Source: an uncultured Mycoplasmatota bacterium | GTDB lineage: Bacteria; Bacillota_I; Bacilli_A; RF39; UBA660 | DNA: 34,090 nt | Direction: 5' to 3' | Assembly: GCA_947574215.1 (NCBI GenBank) | Contig: CANPIX010000013.1 | Span: forward strand, 1 to 34,090 | Part shown: positions 4,587-29,971 of the stretch, in pieces | How the letters are laid out: the number at the start of each line of letters is the position of its first letter | Numbering within the stretch: the first letter of the stretch is position 1 | Notes under the pieces: model-generated | Seen by the model: the letters and a program-made list of their open reading frames with translations, nothing else | What the model was told of the DNA's origin: nothing | Databases searched by the model: none | Translations under genes and position numbers: made by a program

Positions 4587-5313
4587 AAATTAACATCAGA
4601 AATTCTTTATAAGTTTTTATACTATAATCAGTAATTGCTTCTATTTTATATCTATCTATATCAGCATATTGATCATAAACATTTACACATTCGATTCCTG
4701 CATTTTTACTTGCTAAAACGCCAGTATACGAATCTTCAAATATCAAGAATTCACTTGGAGTGGCATTATAATATTGTACTATTTTGTTATAAATTTCTGG
4801 ATGTGGTTTTTTATTTTCTACATTATCTATCGTAAGTATTAAATCAAAGATTTTTTTAATATCCATTTGTTCTAACATTTTTTTATTTGTTTTAGAATAA
4901 ATGTCCAACTGAACTTGGGTTGTCATAGTTGCTAAAATAAGAATAAATCCAAGACTTTTCAATTTTAATATTAGTTCAACAACATTTGGTTTAAAATCTA
5001 TTTCATTTTCTAAAATCTCATTTGCAATATTTGATCTAATTTTTGTTAATTTTTGTTTATCCACTTTAGCAAAATTATATTTATTTATTAAATATTTAGA
5101 ATATTCTAAATAGGTATCACCTGTTTGAATCTTATGTAAAAATAAATCTCTATCAAATTGAATTTTCTCTAAATCTACATTAATTCCCGCATATCTCTTA
5201 ATCAGTATTTGATCAGTCCTGTTCCATACCCCGACAGAATCAATTAATGTGCCATCCATATCAAATATTATATATTTCTTTTTATTCAATTCAATTTGAT
5301 CAATACTTTTCAT
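4585..5313 (-). CDS. HAD-superfamily phosphatase, beta-phosphoglucomutase-like
   Basis: 242-residue cytoplasmic HAD-IA hydrolase. Motif I 'FDMDGTLIDS' (nucleophile and acid/base Asp), motif II 'LATMTT', motif III 'KKPHPEIY' and motif IV 'FEDSYTGVLASKNAG' are all visible, with an alpha-helical cap between motifs I and II. These are the marks of beta-phosphoglucomutase/sugar-phosphatase relatives. The substrate cannot be read from sequence. The start is placed at the ATG ending at 5313, because GGAGG lies 7-8 bases upstream and the family's N-terminus begins there. A start 29 codons further upstream would cross the promoter and the spo0A terminator. It lies downstream of spo0A but appears to be separately transcribed. 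Confidence 0.85.
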   Translation of the reverse strand: MKSIDQIELNKKKYIIFDMDGTLIDSVGVWNRTDQILIKRYAGINVDLEKIQFDRDLFLHKIQTGDTYLEYSKYLINKYNFAKVDKQKLTKIRSNIANEILENEIDFKPNVVELILKLKSLGFILILATMTTQVQLDIYSKTNKKMLEQMDIKKIFDLILTIDNVENKKPHPEIYNKIVQYYNATPSEFLIFEDSYTGVLASKNAGIECVNVYDQYADIDRYKIEAITDYSIKTYKEFLMLI

Positions 5314-17829: not shown

Positions 17830-17861
17830 AAGCCCTTTTTTCTTATAAATAGGGCTTTTTT
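17830..17861. terminator. Bidirectional terminator between gerQ and the HExxH gene
   Basis: AAGCCCT/AGGGCTT, a 7-base stem containing three G-C pairs, followed by five T on the plus strand. It includes the last codons and stop of the convergent minus-strand gene. Confidence 0.85.
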
Positions 17862-19015
17862 GATTCATTATTTCTTTCTTTTACATAAAAATTCATATCT
17901 TCAATTGCTGTTTTACAAATCGTTATTATTTCCGAACTCAATTCCTTTTCATACATTCCATTTTTATAAACTAAATTTAATAATTCAGAATAAAAATTCC
18001 ATACTTTACTAAATTTTAGTTCTAATAAGTCAGGAGTATTTCTTATAGCGCACTTATTAAAAAAAGATTCATAATCTTCAATAAATGTTCCTGTTAAGGG
18101 AAATAACTTTTCATATTTTGAGTCATTTTCTAATCGACAACTTTTAGGATCATCTAGAATAAATATTTTATTATGATGAAGTTTTTTTGCAATTTTAATA
18201 GCTAATTTTTGAGTGCGTATTTCATTTATTATACGGTTTGTTTTCTTTTTATTTTCAATAGAAATTCCTATACTATTTCCAAAGGTTTCGATTTGGTGAA
18301 TAATTTCATGAATTAAACAAACATCTAAAGATTGAATATTTCGATTAAGAAGAGCCATCACTGGAATTTTTACAACACATGCTGACATTGTTTTATTATT
18401 TGGCTCATAAAAATGAAATGCATGTGGATTGGTTTTATAAAGCAAATTTCTAACACTATTTGTAGACAATTGTAAGTGAAATCGTTTTTTTACGGCTTCT
18501 TTTATTTCTTCTCCTAAACAAGAATTTTCAATTATGCGATTTCGGTACTGTATTTGAATTTCTTGACAAAACTCTAAAAAATTCTTTGCCTTTTTTAATA
18601 AATTAGAAGAATTGTTTTCCCATTTTCCTATTATATTGCATATTCTTTTTAAGTCTATTTCATTTTTTAATATTTTTTCAAAAATAAATTCACTATTAAT
18701 TTCTTCCCTTTTTACTTGAGGAAAATTTTGTTCTATGTATTCTTTAATTAATTGGCAATATTTTTTTTTAAATTTTGCTTCTGCTCGGGAAAAATCGTCA
18801 TATCTTTTTAAAATCGCATTTATAGTAGAATTATTAAAATCCTTTGTATGATGAATACAATACACATATTCTTCGATTGGCAAACTAGAAAAATCAAATA
18901 ATATATGTTTGAATCTCTCTAAAATAATATAACGAAATTCTTCTCCATAATTACGAATTATTTCGTCTATAATAAGAAATTTATATTTTTCAAAATTTTC
19001 ATTTACATTATTCAT
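17843..19015 (-). CDS. Putative zinc metallopeptidase of unrecognised family
   Basis: 390 residues. Residues 236-240 form HEIIH inside 'LDVCLIHEIIHQIETFG', a standard zincin helix with flanking apolar residues. Glu265, 25 residues after the second His, lies in 'INEIRTQKLAIKIA', the 'NE..T...A' pattern typical of the third ligand in gluzincins. Upstream, 'AFHFYEPNNKTMSACVVKIPV' could be the preceding beta strand. No signal peptide or membrane helix, so probably intracellular. The 230-residue N-terminal part is helical and charged and matches nothing I know. GGAG lies 15 bases before the only usable ATG, an unusually long spacing; an in-frame TAG excludes an earlier start. It follows the MBL-fold gene by 22 bases, so co-transcription is likely. 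Confidence 0.65.
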   Translation of the reverse strand: MNNVNENFEKYKFLIIDEIIRNYGEEFRYIILERFKHILFDFSSLPIEEYVYCIHHTKDFNNSTINAILKRYDDFSRAEAKFKKKYCQLIKEYIEQNFPQVKREEINSEFIFEKILKNEIDLKRICNIIGKWENNSSNLLKKAKNFLEFCQEIQIQYRNRIIENSCLGEEIKEAVKKRFHLQLSTNSVRNLLYKTNPHAFHFYEPNNKTMSACVVKIPVMALLNRNIQSLDVCLIHEIIHQIETFGNSIGISIENKKKTNRIINEIRTQKLAIKIAKKLHHNKIFILDDPKSCRLENDSKYEKLFPLTGTFIEDYESFFNKCAIRNTPDLLELKFSKVWNFYSELLNLVYKNGMYEKELSSEIITICKTAIEDMNFYVKERNNESKKPYL

Positions 19016-19600: not shown

Positions 19601-19618
19601 AAATACTAGGTGAAACGT

Positions 19619-20164
19619 ATGAATTTATTTTTTATTTTTTTACTGTTAATTATTTTAGGTGCTAGTTTAGCAATTGTTTATATATTGTACTTTAATAAAA
19701 TGCAGTTTTTAAAAACTAAAATAGAACAGGCAGAAGGAATTATCGATGAAACTTTGAGAAAACGTTATGATTTATTGGTACGAGGAGATAATATTGTAAA
19801 ATCCACCTTAAAAGATGAAAAAGAATATTTTAAAGAATATTTGAATTTAAAAAATAAGAAAATTACAAATTTTGATATGGATCGCAAATTAAAAGAAGCT
19901 TTTCACACATTAACAAAATTTAAAGACGACTATCCTGAATTAAATGAAAATACGGAGTTAAAGGATATATTTTTTTCTATTAAAGAATCCGATGAAAAGA
20001 TTGTAGCTATTACTAGTTATTACAACAAAAACACAAATTTATTAAATGAGTTAATTCGAAAATTTCCTTCAAATTTTGTAGCTAAATTTCATCATTTTAC
20101 GATTCGTTCTTTTTTTGATGGAAAAGACATGACGGATACTGTTTATGATGATTTTAAATTATAA
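19619..20164 (+). CDS. LemA-family membrane protein
   Basis: 181 residues. One N-terminal membrane helix (about 3-25) followed by a long helical domain: 'IEQAEGIIDETLRKRYDLL' corresponds to the LemA pattern of two antiparallel helices, and 'ITSYYNKNTNLLNELIRKFP' followed by 'VAKFHHF' matches the conserved 'YN..V...N..i..FP....A...gf' signature. LemA proteins are common in bacteria; no biochemical role is established. Start at ATG 19619, with AGGTGA 5-6 bases upstream. Its stop codon is two bases from the stop of the convergent gene. Confidence 0.8.
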   Translation: MNLFFIFLLLIILGASLAIVYILYFNKMQFLKTKIEQAEGIIDETLRKRYDLLVRGDNIVKSTLKDEKEYFKEYLNLKNKKITNFDMDRKLKEAFHTLTKFKDDYPELNENTELKDIFFSIKESDEKIVAITSYYNKNTNLLNELIRKFPSNFVAKFHHFTIRSFFDGKDMTDTVYDDFKL

Positions 20165-20165
20165 T

Positions 20166-21002
20166 TTACTTCATAATTAGTCTTCGCTTGTAATTTTCTT
20201 CTAATAATGCAAGTATTTTTTCTCTTTCTTGAGAATATTCTTGAATTATTTTTTTGGCACCTTCCTCTCCTTTTTTTCCTAAATAAGAATCACATAAATA
20301 CAATTTTTTTTCTAAAATATTTTGTATAGCGTTCATTAACTTATATTTACTAAAATTATTTTGTAAAGATTCATTTAATACAATTATTCTTTTATTTGGA
20401 TTGTTTAAAAAAGATACTGGACTTATTTGAAAATTGGGATTAATCATTCTTTCTCTACAATTATATACGTATTGAATTAAATCTTCTTTTGTAATTTCTT
20501 GGTAACTATAAATTAATGTTAAAATTTGAAACACCTCAAGCCATTCTCCGTAAAACCCATAACCCCCTCCTCTTTGCGAAACATCCACTCGTTCAATTCG
20601 ATAGTCTCCATGCGATTTTTTTGTATTTCGGACAAAATTATTCATTAATAATTTTTTCATTAGAAAAGAGGTACAAAATTCAATACTTATTGGAACATCT
20701 TCTAAAGGCTCGCTCTCTATTTTTTGGATAATTTCCTGAAATTTTTCAGAATTTATAATTGTCTTTCTAGTAATAGAATACTTCGTTTCATAAAGGAATT
20801 TTTCATCAACTAGTTGTTTTAGTCTCTTAGAAACATAATAAAAATGATGTTTGTCATTAATAGAAAAATAAATATAATTTTCTTTATTTTCTAATAGTTC
20901 TCCTGTATTAAATGAAAAATGTTGATAAGAATTCAAACCTTCATAACGATAATATTTTGGTAAATTAGAAAGTTGATAGTACAATTCTTCATATAAAGTC
21001 AT
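20166..21002 (-). CDS. Unknown cytoplasmic protein
   Basis: 278 residues; no family recognised. No signal peptide or membrane helix. Rich in Tyr, Glu and Lys, with a Gly-rich turn 'SQRGGGYGFYGEW' near the middle followed by an apolar helix, and a basic helical C-terminus ('QEREKILALLEENYKRR'). Start at the ATG ending at 21002, since AAGGAG lies 6 bases upstream; a longer in-frame reading would cross the terminator of the preceding gene. It is separate from the split gene upstream, which has its own terminator at 21051-21074. Confidence 0.55.
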   Translation of the reverse strand: MTLYEELYYQLSNLPKYYRYEGLNSYQHFSFNTGELLENKENYIYFSINDKHHFYYVSKRLKQLVDEKFLYETKYSITRKTIINSEKFQEIIQKIESEPLEDVPISIEFCTSFLMKKLLMNNFVRNTKKSHGDYRIERVDVSQRGGGYGFYGEWLEVFQILTLIYSYQEITKEDLIQYVYNCRERMINPNFQISPVSFLNNPNKRIIVLNESLQNNFSKYKLMNAIQNILEKKLYLCDSYLGKKGEEGAKKIIQEYSQEREKILALLEENYKRRLIMK

Positions 21003-21050
21003 AAATTTCTCCTTTTCTATATTTATTGTATATTGCCACAAAGAAATTAT

Positions 21051-21074
21051 AAAAAAACAACCAAAAGTTTGGTT
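21051..21074 (-). terminator. Terminator of the split coiled-coil gene
   Basis: AACCAA/TTGGTT stem (21059-21064 with 21069-21074), four-base loop, followed on the minus strand by G and seven T. It overlaps the stop codon of the gene at 21073. A TATAAT for the next gene follows at 21046-21051. Confidence 0.65.
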
Positions 21075-22386
21075 ATTCATTTTTATTAAGTAAATTCCTT
21101 TTATCAAAAATTTTCTTTTCTATTTTTAAAGTTCTAGATAATTCTTCTTTTAGTTCTTCTATATCTTCAGTAAGATTAGTATTATTCTCTACATACGGAA
21201 GCAACTTTTCTATAGTATTAAAAAGGTTTATATTTTCGTCAAATAAATTTCTTGCTCTTCTATAAAGTTCATTTAATTTTATTTCTTTTTCATTAATATC
21301 TTTTTTATATTCTGTGAGTTTTTCGTAATTTTTAATAAGCTCTTTTAATGCCACTACAAATCCCCCTATCATTAATTCTTTTGTTCCATCTTTGTTTTCT
21401 TTTTTTACTATATTCTCTAAAAAAGCCGTTTCTATTAAGTCGTCTATAAAAAAAGATATTATAAGTAGTAGCATCAAAAAGAACATTTCCGCCCCTTTAC
21501 TGTAAGTTGTTATTTCTTCTATCGTTACTAATTTTTCTACAATAGAATAAGTTTCAGCATATAGATCACTTATACTTAAAGAAATTTTGGATTCTTGATT
21601 ACTTTCTCCTTTAATTCCAAGCGCTTCTAAATTTATGTTTAGATATTCTTCTAATGGCATTTCTTCTAAATTATTCAAGTCGTATGTCGTACTATTTCTT
21701 ACGTAATAACCATCTTCTTTCTCGAATGGTTCATATTCTATTAATCGTACTGTATCTATTTCTTCATTAAAAATTTCTTCTTTTACAGGCAACTTACCAT
21801 CTAAAGAACTATAACTTTCTATTTCAACGTTATACTTTTTAAAAGATGCAATTGTAATTATCTTTGCAAGTTTAGAACTTCCTACTACTAATCCTACAAT
21901 CGTCCCAATGGAAGTAGTAAATAATGCTACATTTCCCCACATCTTTTTTTTATGAATATAACTCCATTCTTTAAGTTCCGCTATGTGATTTTCTTTTTTA
22001 TCAATATCTTTTTCTATATCTTTTGCTTTTTTATAATATTGACTGGCTTTTTGGGATAGCATTTTAATCTTTTCTTTTAACTCTTCTTTATTTGTTGTTG
22101 CTCTAATGATTGTTATAATAAAACTTTCTTCTAAATAATTAACATTTATTCCTTCTGCATCAATTTTATTTTTTTGTAATCTAATTTGCGAATATTTTTT
22201 ATCATTTAAATCTAAACTTTCTAATTCTTTTACAACTTGTTTATCTAAATTATAGGTGTGAATTTCGTCTTTTTGCAATTCGTGTAATGTAGGACTTGTT
22301 TCTAATACTTTTATTTCTTCTTTAATAAATTCATAAGTTAACTTATAGATATCTTCTACTAATGGTCCTTCCACTTGATAATCCAA
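21073..22386 (-). CDS. Downstream part of a frameshifted membrane/coiled-coil protein
   Basis: 437 codons from the first in-frame TTG. I do not recognise the family. Helical charged N-terminal part, a first membrane helix (about 150-170) after a Lys cluster, a middle segment of about 125 residues, a second membrane helix (about 299-318), then a coiled-coil C-terminus (about 350-430). Positive charges suggest that both ends are cytoplasmic and the middle segment faces outward. No ribosome site precedes the TTG. Deleting one copy of the 10-base duplication at 22378-22397 joins this frame to the upstream part at 'DTLDYQVEG', giving about 564 residues. So this is most likely the larger part of one gene, silent or poorly expressed in the present form. 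Confidence 0.65.
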   Translation of the reverse strand: MDYQVEGPLVEDIYKLTYEFIKEEIKVLETSPTLHELQKDEIHTYNLDKQVVKELESLDLNDKKYSQIRLQKNKIDAEGINVNYLEESFIITIIRATTNKEELKEKIKMLSQKASQYYKKAKDIEKDIDKKENHIAELKEWSYIHKKKMWGNVALFTTSIGTIVGLVVGSSKLAKIITIASFKKYNVEIESYSSLDGKLPVKEEIFNEEIDTVRLIEYEPFEKEDGYYVRNSTTYDLNNLEEMPLEEYLNINLEALGIKGESNQESKISLSISDLYAETYSIVEKLVTIEEITTYSKGAEMFFLMLLLIISFFIDDLIETAFLENIVKKENKDGTKELMIGGFVVALKELIKNYEKLTEYKKDINEKEIKLNELYRRARNLFDENINLFNTIEKLLPYVENNTNLTEDIEELKEELSRTLKIEKKIFDKRNLLNKNE

Positions 22387-22777
22387 AATAATCCAAAGTA
22401 TCAGATTTTTTTAGTTTATCTAATAATTGTAATAATCGATTTCGAAAGCGTTCTAAATCTTCTTTTTTCTTTTCCTTTGATATCATATATTCTTTTAAAA
22501 CTAGATTAAAGGAAGAAACTTTTAGATAAATTTCGTACTTATTTACTTCATAGTATATCCCGTCTAATTTAGAAATGGCTTTAATATAAGCATCTGCAAT
22601 AAAAGCCTCCTTAAAAACTGTATTCGTATTATAACTTGTTTTTTCATTACATTCTACGATAACATCTTCTAATAGTTTTTCATGTTTGGAAACATCTAAT
22701 CCAATATTTTTTAAACGATCCAGCGCTTTTTTCACTTTATAAATACTTGTTTCAAATTCTATCGCTTTATCATTCAT
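22343..22777 (-). CDS. Upstream part of the frameshifted membrane/coiled-coil protein
   Basis: 144 residues, of which the first 130 are the proper N-terminus of the joint protein; the last 14 ('FGLSSGRTISRRYL') are out-of-frame sequence. Largely helical ('KVKKALDRLKNIG', 'KKKEDLERFRNRLLQLLDKLKK'), no membrane helix. A GGGG-rich ribosome site lies about 6 bases before the ATG, and a strong promoter precedes it, so transcription appears intact. It overlaps the downstream frame by 44 bases. Confidence 0.65.
   Translation of the reverse strand: MNDKAIEFETSIYKVKKALDRLKNIGLDVSKHEKLLEDVIVECNEKTSYNTNTVFKEAFIADAYIKAISKLDGIYYEVNKYEIYLKVSSFNLVLKEYMISKEKKKEDLERFRNRLLQLLDKLKKSDTLDYFGLSSGRTISRRYL
22378..22397. 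repeat. Perfect 10-base tandem duplication causing a frameshift
   Basis: ATAATCCAAA occurs twice with no gap (22378-22387 and 22388-22397). Ten is not a multiple of three, so the second copy shifts the reading frame. Removing either copy fuses the two flanking frames. Confidence 0.9.
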
Positions 22778-22808
22778 CTACATCCCCGCCTTTACGTGTT
22801 TTTCAGAT

Positions 22809-22838
22809 ATTATAGTTTTTCTTCGATGTTTTTGTCAA
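22809..22838 (-). promoter_or_regulatory. Promoter of the split gene
   Basis: Minus-strand perfect TTGACA (22833-22838) and perfect TATAAT (22809-22814) with an 18-base spacer, about 30 bases before the start codon. Confidence 0.8.
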
Positions 22839-22848
22839 CGAATAGTAT

Positions 22849-22876
22849 AAAAAATAACTTTTACGAATTATTTTTT
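22849..22876 (-). terminator. AT-only terminator of the rplI-ung operon
   Basis: AAAAAATAA and TTATTTTTT form a 9-base stem of A-T pairs with a 10-base loop, beginning at the end of ung. Thermodynamically weak but correctly placed. Confidence 0.45.
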
Positions 22877-23532
22877 AAGTCCCAATCGATAGGAGACATG
22901 TTACTGTTTTTTAAAAATTCATTGGTTTTAGAAAAAGGCTTACTTCCAAAGAATCCATAACTGGCAGAAAATGGACTTGGATGAGCAGAAGTTAGCACTA
23001 AATGTTTTGAATTAGTGATAAATTTCTTTTTTTCTTTAGCAAAATTTCCCCAAAGAATAAATACTATTGGTTCTTCCTTATTATTTAAAGTTTTAATTAT
23101 ATAGTCCGTAAGACGCTCCCATCCTAAATTTCTGTGACTAGCAGGTTTATCTTTTTCTACAGTTAATACTGCATTTAAAAGAAGGACGCCTTGATGGGCC
23201 CAATAAGATAGATCGCCTTCTTGAATTGGAGTTATTCCTAAATCATTTTCCAATTCTTTATAAATATTTTTAAGTGAAGGGGGAACCTTAATTCCTTTTT
23301 GTACAGAAAAAGAAAGCCCATGTGCTTCTCCAGCACCGTGATAAGGATCTTGACCAACAATTACAACTTTCACATTTTTATAGGGCGTTAATTTTAAAGC
23401 GTTAAAAATATAATCCTTTGGTGGAAAAATAGTTTTACTTTTGTATTCACTCTCCACAAGTGAATAAAATTTTTTAAATCCATCACCTTCAAAGACTACT
23501 TTTAACACTTCATCCCAATCATTCTGTAACAT
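22861..23532 (-). CDS. ung: Uracil-DNA glycosylase, family 1
   Basis: 223 residues, family length. Removes uracil from DNA to start base-excision repair. Water-activating loop 'GQDPYHG' with Asp62, 'GLSFSV', 'LLLNAVLTV', 'WGNFAKEK' and the Leu-intercalation/His loop 'HPSPFSA' with His184 are intact. GGAG lies 9 bases before the ATG. It starts 17 bases after rlmH and is the last gene of the operon from rplI. Confidence 0.96.
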   Translation of the reverse strand: MLQNDWDEVLKVVFEGDGFKKFYSLVESEYKSKTIFPPKDYIFNALKLTPYKNVKVVIVGQDPYHGAGEAHGLSFSVQKGIKVPPSLKNIYKELENDLGITPIQEGDLSYWAHQGVLLLNAVLTVEKDKPASHRNLGWERLTDYIIKTLNNKEEPIVFILWGNFAKEKKKFITNSKHLVLTSAHPSPFSASYGFFGSKPFSKTNEFLKNSNMSPIDWDLKNNS

Positions 23533-28247: not shown

Positions 28248-28278
28248 AAAAAAAATTCACCTTATTAGTGAATTTTTT
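28248..28278 (-). terminator. Terminator of the 28277-29923 gene
   Basis: AAAAAATTCAC and GTGAATTTTTT form an 11-base stem with a 7-base loop, followed by T-rich sequence on the minus strand. It includes part of the stop codon. Confidence 0.8.
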
Positions 28279-29923
28279 AAGCTATTTCTTTTTTTGATTT
28301 TGCTTTATCCATAGGTAGAATTGGTGCTTCTTCTAATTTATCAATTTGCTCCAAAATTTCTTCTTTTGGTTCTAAAGAAACGTATTTTTGATCACTTTCT
28401 AATTTCTCAGCCCATATTGATAAGAATAGCTCAGAAGATTCTTCTCCACGTGTAGCAATAAATTGATTTAAGTAATCTACTCCTCCCAATTTTTCTATAG
28501 TATCTGGAGAATAAATTTGTAACCAGTCAGGTAAATCAAAATTGTTTCTTTTGAAAGTAAATAAGTTTTTCATTTGCTCTACTGTAACATTTGGCTTTTG
28601 AATAGAGTCGTCTTCTTTCATATAAGAAATATCAAGCATTTCTTTTTCAACATTTTCCTCAGCCCATTTCATAGTTTCTAATGAATCTTTAGCACTAATT
28701 TTATCAATCATTTCTGCAAGTTTTGAAGAAAACAAGTATTGAAAATTGTTTAATATTTCAGTTAATTTATTTCTTAATTCTTTACTGTAATATTGTGTAG
28801 ATAAAGCAAGGGCCATTACTTGGAACCAATCATTTGTATTCGCAACTCCCCAGTGTCCAAAATCAACACGTTCTTTTTCGTCTTGAAATTTTTTACTTAA
28901 ATTTCCTAATTTTTCTGTTAATAAGTTTGATAAAGTTACACCAAAAAAGTTATTATTTTCTCCGATACGCCATACATCTGAAATACAATTAGCTTCTTCA
29001 CATTTATTGTATACTGCCATATTTCCATCAGTAAGATCAATTGTAACCTCTATACCTTCTTTATCATAATTGGCTTCTGATGTTGGTTTGCTATAATAAT
29101 CAAATGCTGGATAGTTTTTACGATTACAAATCAAAGACATAGTAGCACCATAGTAACCTAATTTCCTTGTATCAGGATATGGATCTTTGTTTCCAAAAAT
29201 TTCTACTTCTTCCATTGTAGTTTCCACTGCTGGAAGACTTTCCTTTAACTTAATATTCGCTGTACCATTTAATAAAAAATATTCATGTAATTTACTACTA
29301 GGTGCGTATTTTTCATTTATATCAGTAATGGTATGATAACCAAGTTTAAAACCTTTTACACCTGTTAAATAATGATACAAAAGTTGTATCGGCATATCTT
29401 CGTGTGTATCAAAGTTTTCATATATAAATCGAGTAGTTCTTTTATTTATTTTTACTTTGTCTCTTTTTGCCCACCAATCGTAAGCGTCTTGCAATGATAA
29501 TGTTTTTACATAAGATGGTAAATTTTCCAAATCATCTCCATAAATACTAAATATTTTTTTGTAAGGAAGTTCTGATATATGATGTATATCTACTTCTCCT
29601 AAAGAATTTACTGTACGGAAAAGAATAGGATCACCCATCTCATCTTTGTAAACATTAATAATTTGGAATTCTGATTGATTTGATGTCGTATCAATTAATT
29701 TATTTAAATCAAACTCCGCCTCTAAATATTCTATAGGATTTTGAGTGAATGATTTATAATTTCCTAAATTAACTCGTATATTGGAACAGCTGGCTAATCC
29801 ATCTGGAGTAACCGATCTCCATTCTTGTTTAATTGGCTTAGTAGAATCTACATCCACTATAAACATTTGATAAGGTACATTTTCACTTTTTGATCCTTTA
29901 GATAAACCTACTAGTACTTTCAT
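28277..29923 (-). CDS. Large unknown cytoplasmic protein
   Basis: 548 residues; no family recognised. No signal peptide, membrane helix or nucleotide-binding motif. Acidic, Tyr/Trp/Asn-rich middle part; the C-terminal 40 residues are Glu/Lys-rich and probably disordered. The N-terminus 'MKVLVGLSKGSKSENVPYQMFIVDVDS' gives a beta-alpha-beta-like opening. Cysteines occur only in the first 330 residues. Start at the ATG ending at 29923, with AGAGG 6 bases upstream; a TTG two codons earlier overlaps that region. It is a single-gene unit with its own promoter and terminator between two essential operons. Confidence 0.6.
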   Translation of the reverse strand: MKVLVGLSKGSKSENVPYQMFIVDVDSTKPIKQEWRSVTPDGLASCSNIRVNLGNYKSFTQNPIEYLEAEFDLNKLIDTTSNQSEFQIINVYKDEMGDPILFRTVNSLGEVDIHHISELPYKKIFSIYGDDLENLPSYVKTLSLQDAYDWWAKRDKVKINKRTTRFIYENFDTHEDMPIQLLYHYLTGVKGFKLGYHTITDINEKYAPSSKLHEYFLLNGTANIKLKESLPAVETTMEEVEIFGNKDPYPDTRKLGYYGATMSLICNRKNYPAFDYYSKPTSEANYDKEGIEVTIDLTDGNMAVYNKCEEANCISDVWRIGENNNFFGVTLSNLLTEKLGNLSKKFQDEKERVDFGHWGVANTNDWFQVMALALSTQYYSKELRNKLTEILNNFQYLFSSKLAEMIDKISAKDSLETMKWAEENVEKEMLDISYMKEDDSIQKPNVTVEQMKNLFTFKRNNFDLPDWLQIYSPDTIEKLGGVDYLNQFIATRGEESSELFLSIWAEKLESDQKYVSLEPKEEILEQIDKLEEAPILPMDKAKSKKEIA

Positions 29924-29971
29924 ATTCAACCTCTTTCTTTTAAAATAACTCTTTTATTCTTATTCTATCCC

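Follow-up and report, generated by a model that had tools for sequence, protein, structure and literature searches.

The gene at positions 21073-22777 of the window (the whole stretch of DNA analyzed here, 34,090 nucleotides) is very likely a single ancestral accessory gene, encoding a product of about 564 amino acids, that was recently frameshifted by an exact 10-bp tandem duplication, an ordinary loss that is reversible only in principle. By comparison with related sequences, the insertion could be shown to be derived, to equal one repeat unit and to break the reading frame, with the remaining gene undamaged. We found no sign that the site is a maintained or evolved on/off switch, and an ordinary recent gene inactivation is therefore the most likely explanation. 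This reading is based on one static draft assembly.

The duplication and the two reading frames

The gene and its flanking signals comprise the following features:

22809-22838, minus strand: consensus SigA-type promoter motif TTGACA-18-TATAAT, 12/12 positions (motif scan)
22778-22797, minus strand: region 5' of the ATG, with an AAAGG ribosome-site-like sequence (sequence)
22343-22777, minus strand: upstream fragment, 144 amino acids from an ATG; codons 1-130 homologous to the family N-terminus, then 14 out-of-frame residues (ORF list, homolog comparison)
22406-22412, minus strand: seven consecutive A shortly ahead of the repeat, bordering the stretch open in both frames; theoretical RNA-polymerase slippage site (sequence)
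22378-22397, minus strand: exact tandem duplication 2 x TTTGGATTAT; one unit is a derived 10-nt insertion (sequence; single copy in orthologs)
21073-22386, minus strand: downstream fragment, 437 amino acids from a TTG inside the repeat; matches the remainder of the family protein by homology and includes the two predicted transmembrane segments (ORF list, homolog comparison)
21045-21073, minus strand: weak terminator-like hairpin (AACCAA-loop-TTGGTT) followed by T7 (read by eye)

A first-pass annotation of this DNA had reported an exact 10-base duplication at 22378-22397, and the sequence bears this out. The positions form the exact 2x10 tandem ATAATCCAAA, on the minus strand two back-to-back copies of TTTGGATTAT in the context ...GATACTTTGGATTATTTTGGATTATCAAGTGG..., and the matching bases are confined to these ten with none extra beyond. 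The 20-mer occurs once in its own genome assembly (1.11 Mb, 40 contigs). Taken alone, the repeat would be unremarkable and would prove little, given that shuffled windows lead one to expect about 1.05 exact tandems of 2x9 to 2x15 (3 seen in the window) and 0.25 exact tandems of period 10 (2 seen). It becomes meaningful because the orthologs have one copy and the insert is exactly one unit. The second exact 10-bp tandem of the window (TAATTTTTGT) comprises 2.1 copies and is located at 5037-5057, within a HAD-like gene that is intact; a control on this repeat found no close ortholog to tell whether it is derived.

A change of the repeat by 10 nt (+1 modulo 3) shifts the frame and leaves two frames, which run as the first-pass annotation had described them: the upstream one, from 22777, runs off after the repeat, and the downstream one, ending at 21073, starts inside it. 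The annotated interval 22343-22777 matches the upstream fragment, whereas the affected gene in full extends over 21073-22777. The downstream frame is open from 22410, directly after a TAA at 22411-22413, and overlaps with the upstream frame from 22410 to 22343. The first 130 of about 564 codons remain in the correct frame, the two predicted membrane segments are encoded downstream of the lesion, and according to the homolog comparison the lesion takes away a conserved part of the protein. The earlier figure of about 564 residues after deletion of one copy is in line with the codon count of the two parts (130 + 434), which also fits the orthologs of 550-569 amino acids. The 437 downstream codons contain no further stop or frameshift, in agreement with the earlier view that the gene is otherwise intact. 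With regard to the flanking signals, the perfect SigA promoter stood up to the motif scan. The supposedly proper terminator turned out to be weaker, as its stem is AT-rich and comprises 6 bp with 2 G-C pairs before the T7, and a strict terminator scan found nothing meeting its criteria.

The run of seven A lies directly 5' of the region that is open in both frames, and the loss of one A would lead into the downstream frame. Some full-length protein might thus arise by slippage of the RNA polymerase at this run or by +1 ribosomal frameshifting in the overlap, and slippage at an A11 run is indeed known to rescue tssM in Citrobacter rodentium (PMC4256274). However, we consider such a bypass very improbable. 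Runs of at least seven A or T are common, with 88 in the window, so this one is not special, and orthologs that need no rescue also have 5-7 A there. Moreover, most transcription errors at homopolymers are insertions, their frequency drops sharply as the runs get shorter, and a study of E. coli and Buchnera saw none that restored a frame (PMC5574713). At best, a bypass may yield traces of full-length protein.

Orthologs and the wider family

The gene is present in 4 of 22 genomes of the same genus, and a relative occurs in 23 of the 386 genomes of the family. The orthologs from genomes G002 (569 amino acids) and G017 (550 amino acids) are unbroken through the junction, as is the one from G003, which lies at a contig end, over the part present. 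In each of these three closest homologs the junction holds one unit only (GATACTTTAGATTATCAAGTAG in G002, GATACTTTGGATTACCAAGTAG in G003 and GGAACATTGGATTATCAAGTAG in G017), the 10-mer itself or something very close to it, and the translation reads KSDTLDYQVEG or a close form. Intact full-length homologs measure about 526-573 residues from stop to stop and span the junction, where an S-D/N-T-L-x-Y-like motif is common, and almost all of them possess a pair of hydrophobic segments, one around residue 290 and one around residue 445. All other full-length homologs are continuous at the junction, except for two that are broken in other ways, and no homolog in the wider-family alignment has a repeat or an insertion at the equivalent of 22378-22397. 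Since the orthologs are unbroken and carry a single copy, the extra 10 nt in the window are derived and frame-breaking and do not mark a conserved gene boundary. A division of all orthologs at the same boundary, which the first-pass annotation had named as evidence against its own reading, did not occur.

Because the orthologs are continuous, two separate genes were rejected as well. In such an arrangement, the downstream ORF would be translated alone from its TTG or by coupling, and it is true that both frames are long and that a TTG stands at the head of the downstream one. However, no Shine-Dalgarno-like sequence precedes any of the four early starts (TTG 22386, GTG 22374, TTG 22278 and ATG 22062, the first ATG of this frame), just as the first-pass annotation had noted for the downstream frame in general. 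The TTG moreover sits within the new duplication and the orthologs are one gene, so that a true two-gene arrangement is hardly conceivable. Even so, the two fragments of the one broken gene could both be produced and act jointly, although a start signal is not apparent.

The first-pass annotation had further thought of a minor population in a metagenome. It is unlikely, however, that a single copy prevails in the population and that the allele with two copies is a rare variant or stems from faulty assembly. With its 40 contigs, the draft was most likely assembled from a metagenome, as were its relatives, which leaves room for such an artifact. However, the insertion is clean and matches one 10-nt unit to the base, which would be unusual as a short-read error, and assemblers normally take the more abundant path. 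The one-copy allele was not found in viral contigs, although this is a weak test, and a scan of the genome contigs for a strain of the same species matched only the three known orthologs from the genus.

The two homologs that are broken in other ways are a paralog in G002 (L011, 295-1899), where a nonsense codon, an in-frame TAA, follows after 86 codons, and a family copy in G404 (L024, 1492-3182), where a late frameshift leaves 496 amino acids plus 72 amino acids in another frame. The latter is apparently due to a small indel and not to a long tandem unit, and neither lesion is a tandem duplication like that of the window. These two independent breaks by ordinary mutations favor the routine loss of a dispensable gene. 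The family also forms tandem pairs of intact genes (L038, 1474-4608, and L028, 1450-4340; in G148 and in G060).

Age of the lesion

Approximately 7.2% of random substitutions in the downstream 437 codons create a stop. The presence of zero stops therefore sets, at P=0.05, an upper bound of about 0.032 neutral substitutions per site since the break, which is a rough limit, as synonymous distances are near saturation, and amounts to less than a tenth of the synonymous length of the window branch (dS about 0.41). Since the downstream codons are free of other damage, the break is recent. Their dN/dS is 0.36 (0.23-0.58) on the window branch versus 0.24 (0.17-0.33) on the sister branches (bootstrap P=0.09), the lesion being too recent to tell. 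As dN/dS on the window branch is not significantly raised, selection probably acted on the gene until recently.

Recent inactivation, one of the possibilities raised by the first-pass annotation, thus finds good support in the otherwise undamaged sequence, the limit on neutral divergence, the patchy distribution and the two independently broken copies. Patchy presence together with intact orthologs that lack the lesion is what characterizes a recent pseudogene; recency itself is equally expected for a gene kept by switching.

Genomic context and identity of the protein

The core gene order in the genus is rlmH, ung, then lemA. The genes ung and lemA are nearly adjacent in G002, G003, G016, G007, G012 and G018, with only about 60 nt and no gene between them in G002 and G003, and the gap is larger and variable in the other genomes, where it carries different or additional cargo. 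In the window, ung (22861-23532) and lemA (19610-20164) enclose a variable gap (20166-22777) with two genes, the broken one and another that is likewise unnamed (20166-21000). G021 possesses a relative of the latter but not of the former, and the orthologs of the broken gene in G002, G003, G017 and G028 have other neighbors than in the window. On the basis of this gene order, the broken gene is accessory cargo of a variable site between ung and lemA. In G014, ung is split into two frames (L059, 1412-2076), which is either real or an assembly error.

There is no paralog of the broken gene in its own genome, and no Pfam, NCBIfam, PADLOC or PHROG family matched it above the curated cut-off or with a clear E-value. 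The best family match, DUF6730 (E=1.8e-5), is below its cut-off and weaker in the orthologs. A match to the RTX N-terminal Pfam family (E=6e-4, below cut-off) in 1 of 16 homologs was dismissed as a chance similarity of coiled coils, and a profile searched against solved structures likewise gave only chance matches of this kind. A phage origin was discarded, with no phage match and no relative in viral contigs, as was a role as a defense-system gene, with no clear PADLOC match. The AlphaFold model of an intact relative is poor (pLDDT 46, pTM 0.28). What can be predicted from the sequence is a protein of about 564 amino acids with two transmembrane segments and with helical ends that probably form coiled coils. 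Elsewhere in the window, no Rfam RNA family was found, and the large ORFs at 28277-29929 (550 amino acids) and 17843-19015 (390 amino acids) have no Pfam match.

Discussion

The most likely source of the lesion is replication slippage; the duplication of one 10-nt unit in this way would account fully for the sequence. The footprint of an excised insertion sequence (a target duplication of about 10 bp) is less likely, as a search of the genome for the DDE_Tnp_1 family revealed no transposase of this kind, and a mutator genome was dismissed because MutS is present. The broken gene would yield an N-terminal fragment of 130 residues that has a false tail of 14 residues and lacks the two membrane segments, and the C-terminal part should be made in small amounts, if at all, so that the gene is presumably inactive. 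Its loss is apparently tolerated, which would be in line with a dispensable gene that comes and goes within the group. Collapse of the repeat at a low rate would restore the frame, making the inactivation formally reversible, but not by design.

The first-pass annotation had also considered a reversible switch. This is possible insofar as any exact tandem duplication can collapse, but it received no positive support, with only two copies, no other genome with a repeat at this position, no conservation of the repeat and no second allele seen. In the case of slipped-strand phase variation, the 2x10 duplication would be the OFF state of a switch that selection favors because it makes a surface or membrane protein heterogeneous. 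The exact tandem unit that is not divisible by three and the otherwise intact gene are compatible with this idea, and spontaneous tandem duplications in pneumococcal capsule genes provide a precedent, as far as the citing articles relate it (Waite et al. 2001, 2003, cited in PMC4022640, PMC13410964). However, we regard it as improbable. There are only two copies, and reversion would take place at up to approximately 1e-5, a value for an insertion of up to 9 bp (PMC4022640), which is far below the usual switches. No homolog has a repeat at the site, which speaks against a conserved predisposition, and the other broken copies of the family carry unrelated mutations. MutS is present, which suggests no mutator state of that kind, although loops of 10 nt are not acted upon by MutS. 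It is quite improbable that the repeat provides uncultured Bacilli-like bacteria of small genome size with a true low-rate ON/OFF switch for an uncharacterized family of membrane proteins that have two transmembrane segments.

Understood as a recent inactivation, the locus cleanly documents the earliest stage of gene loss, for the most part an ordinary finding of a potentially revertible frameshift in a dispensable gene. It also points to an unnamed accessory family of membrane proteins of about 550 amino acids, patchily distributed in one family of uncultured bacteria, with two copies in tandem in some genomes and with at least three independent disruptions.

Among known systems, young pseudogenes of accessory genes offer a close parallel, with one disabling mutation, intact relatives, a patchy gene and other members broken independently. 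Unlike in most of them, the lesion in the window is an exact tandem duplication and hence easier to revert. Contingency loci based on slipped-strand mispairing, such as siaD of Neisseria, share with the window a direct repeat in the coding frame with a unit that is not a multiple of three. However, they possess many copies or long homopolymers that are conserved among strains, whereas here two copies occur in one genome only, and the repeat is neither conserved nor variable in number among the relatives, being single-copy or equivalent in G002, G003 and G017 and absent from the wider-family alignment. In the pneumococcal capsule genes (type 3 locus, cap8E and tts), tandem duplications are tied to phase variation, according to what the citing articles report (Waite et al. 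2001, 2003, cited in PMC4022640, PMC13410964). There, as here, a tandem duplication inside the ORF inactivates a gene that is otherwise intact, and it can collapse back. However, phase variation of the capsule genes was reported in culture, whereas the present case comes from one static assembly, and its unit, at 10 bp, is short and lies within a gene of no named family.
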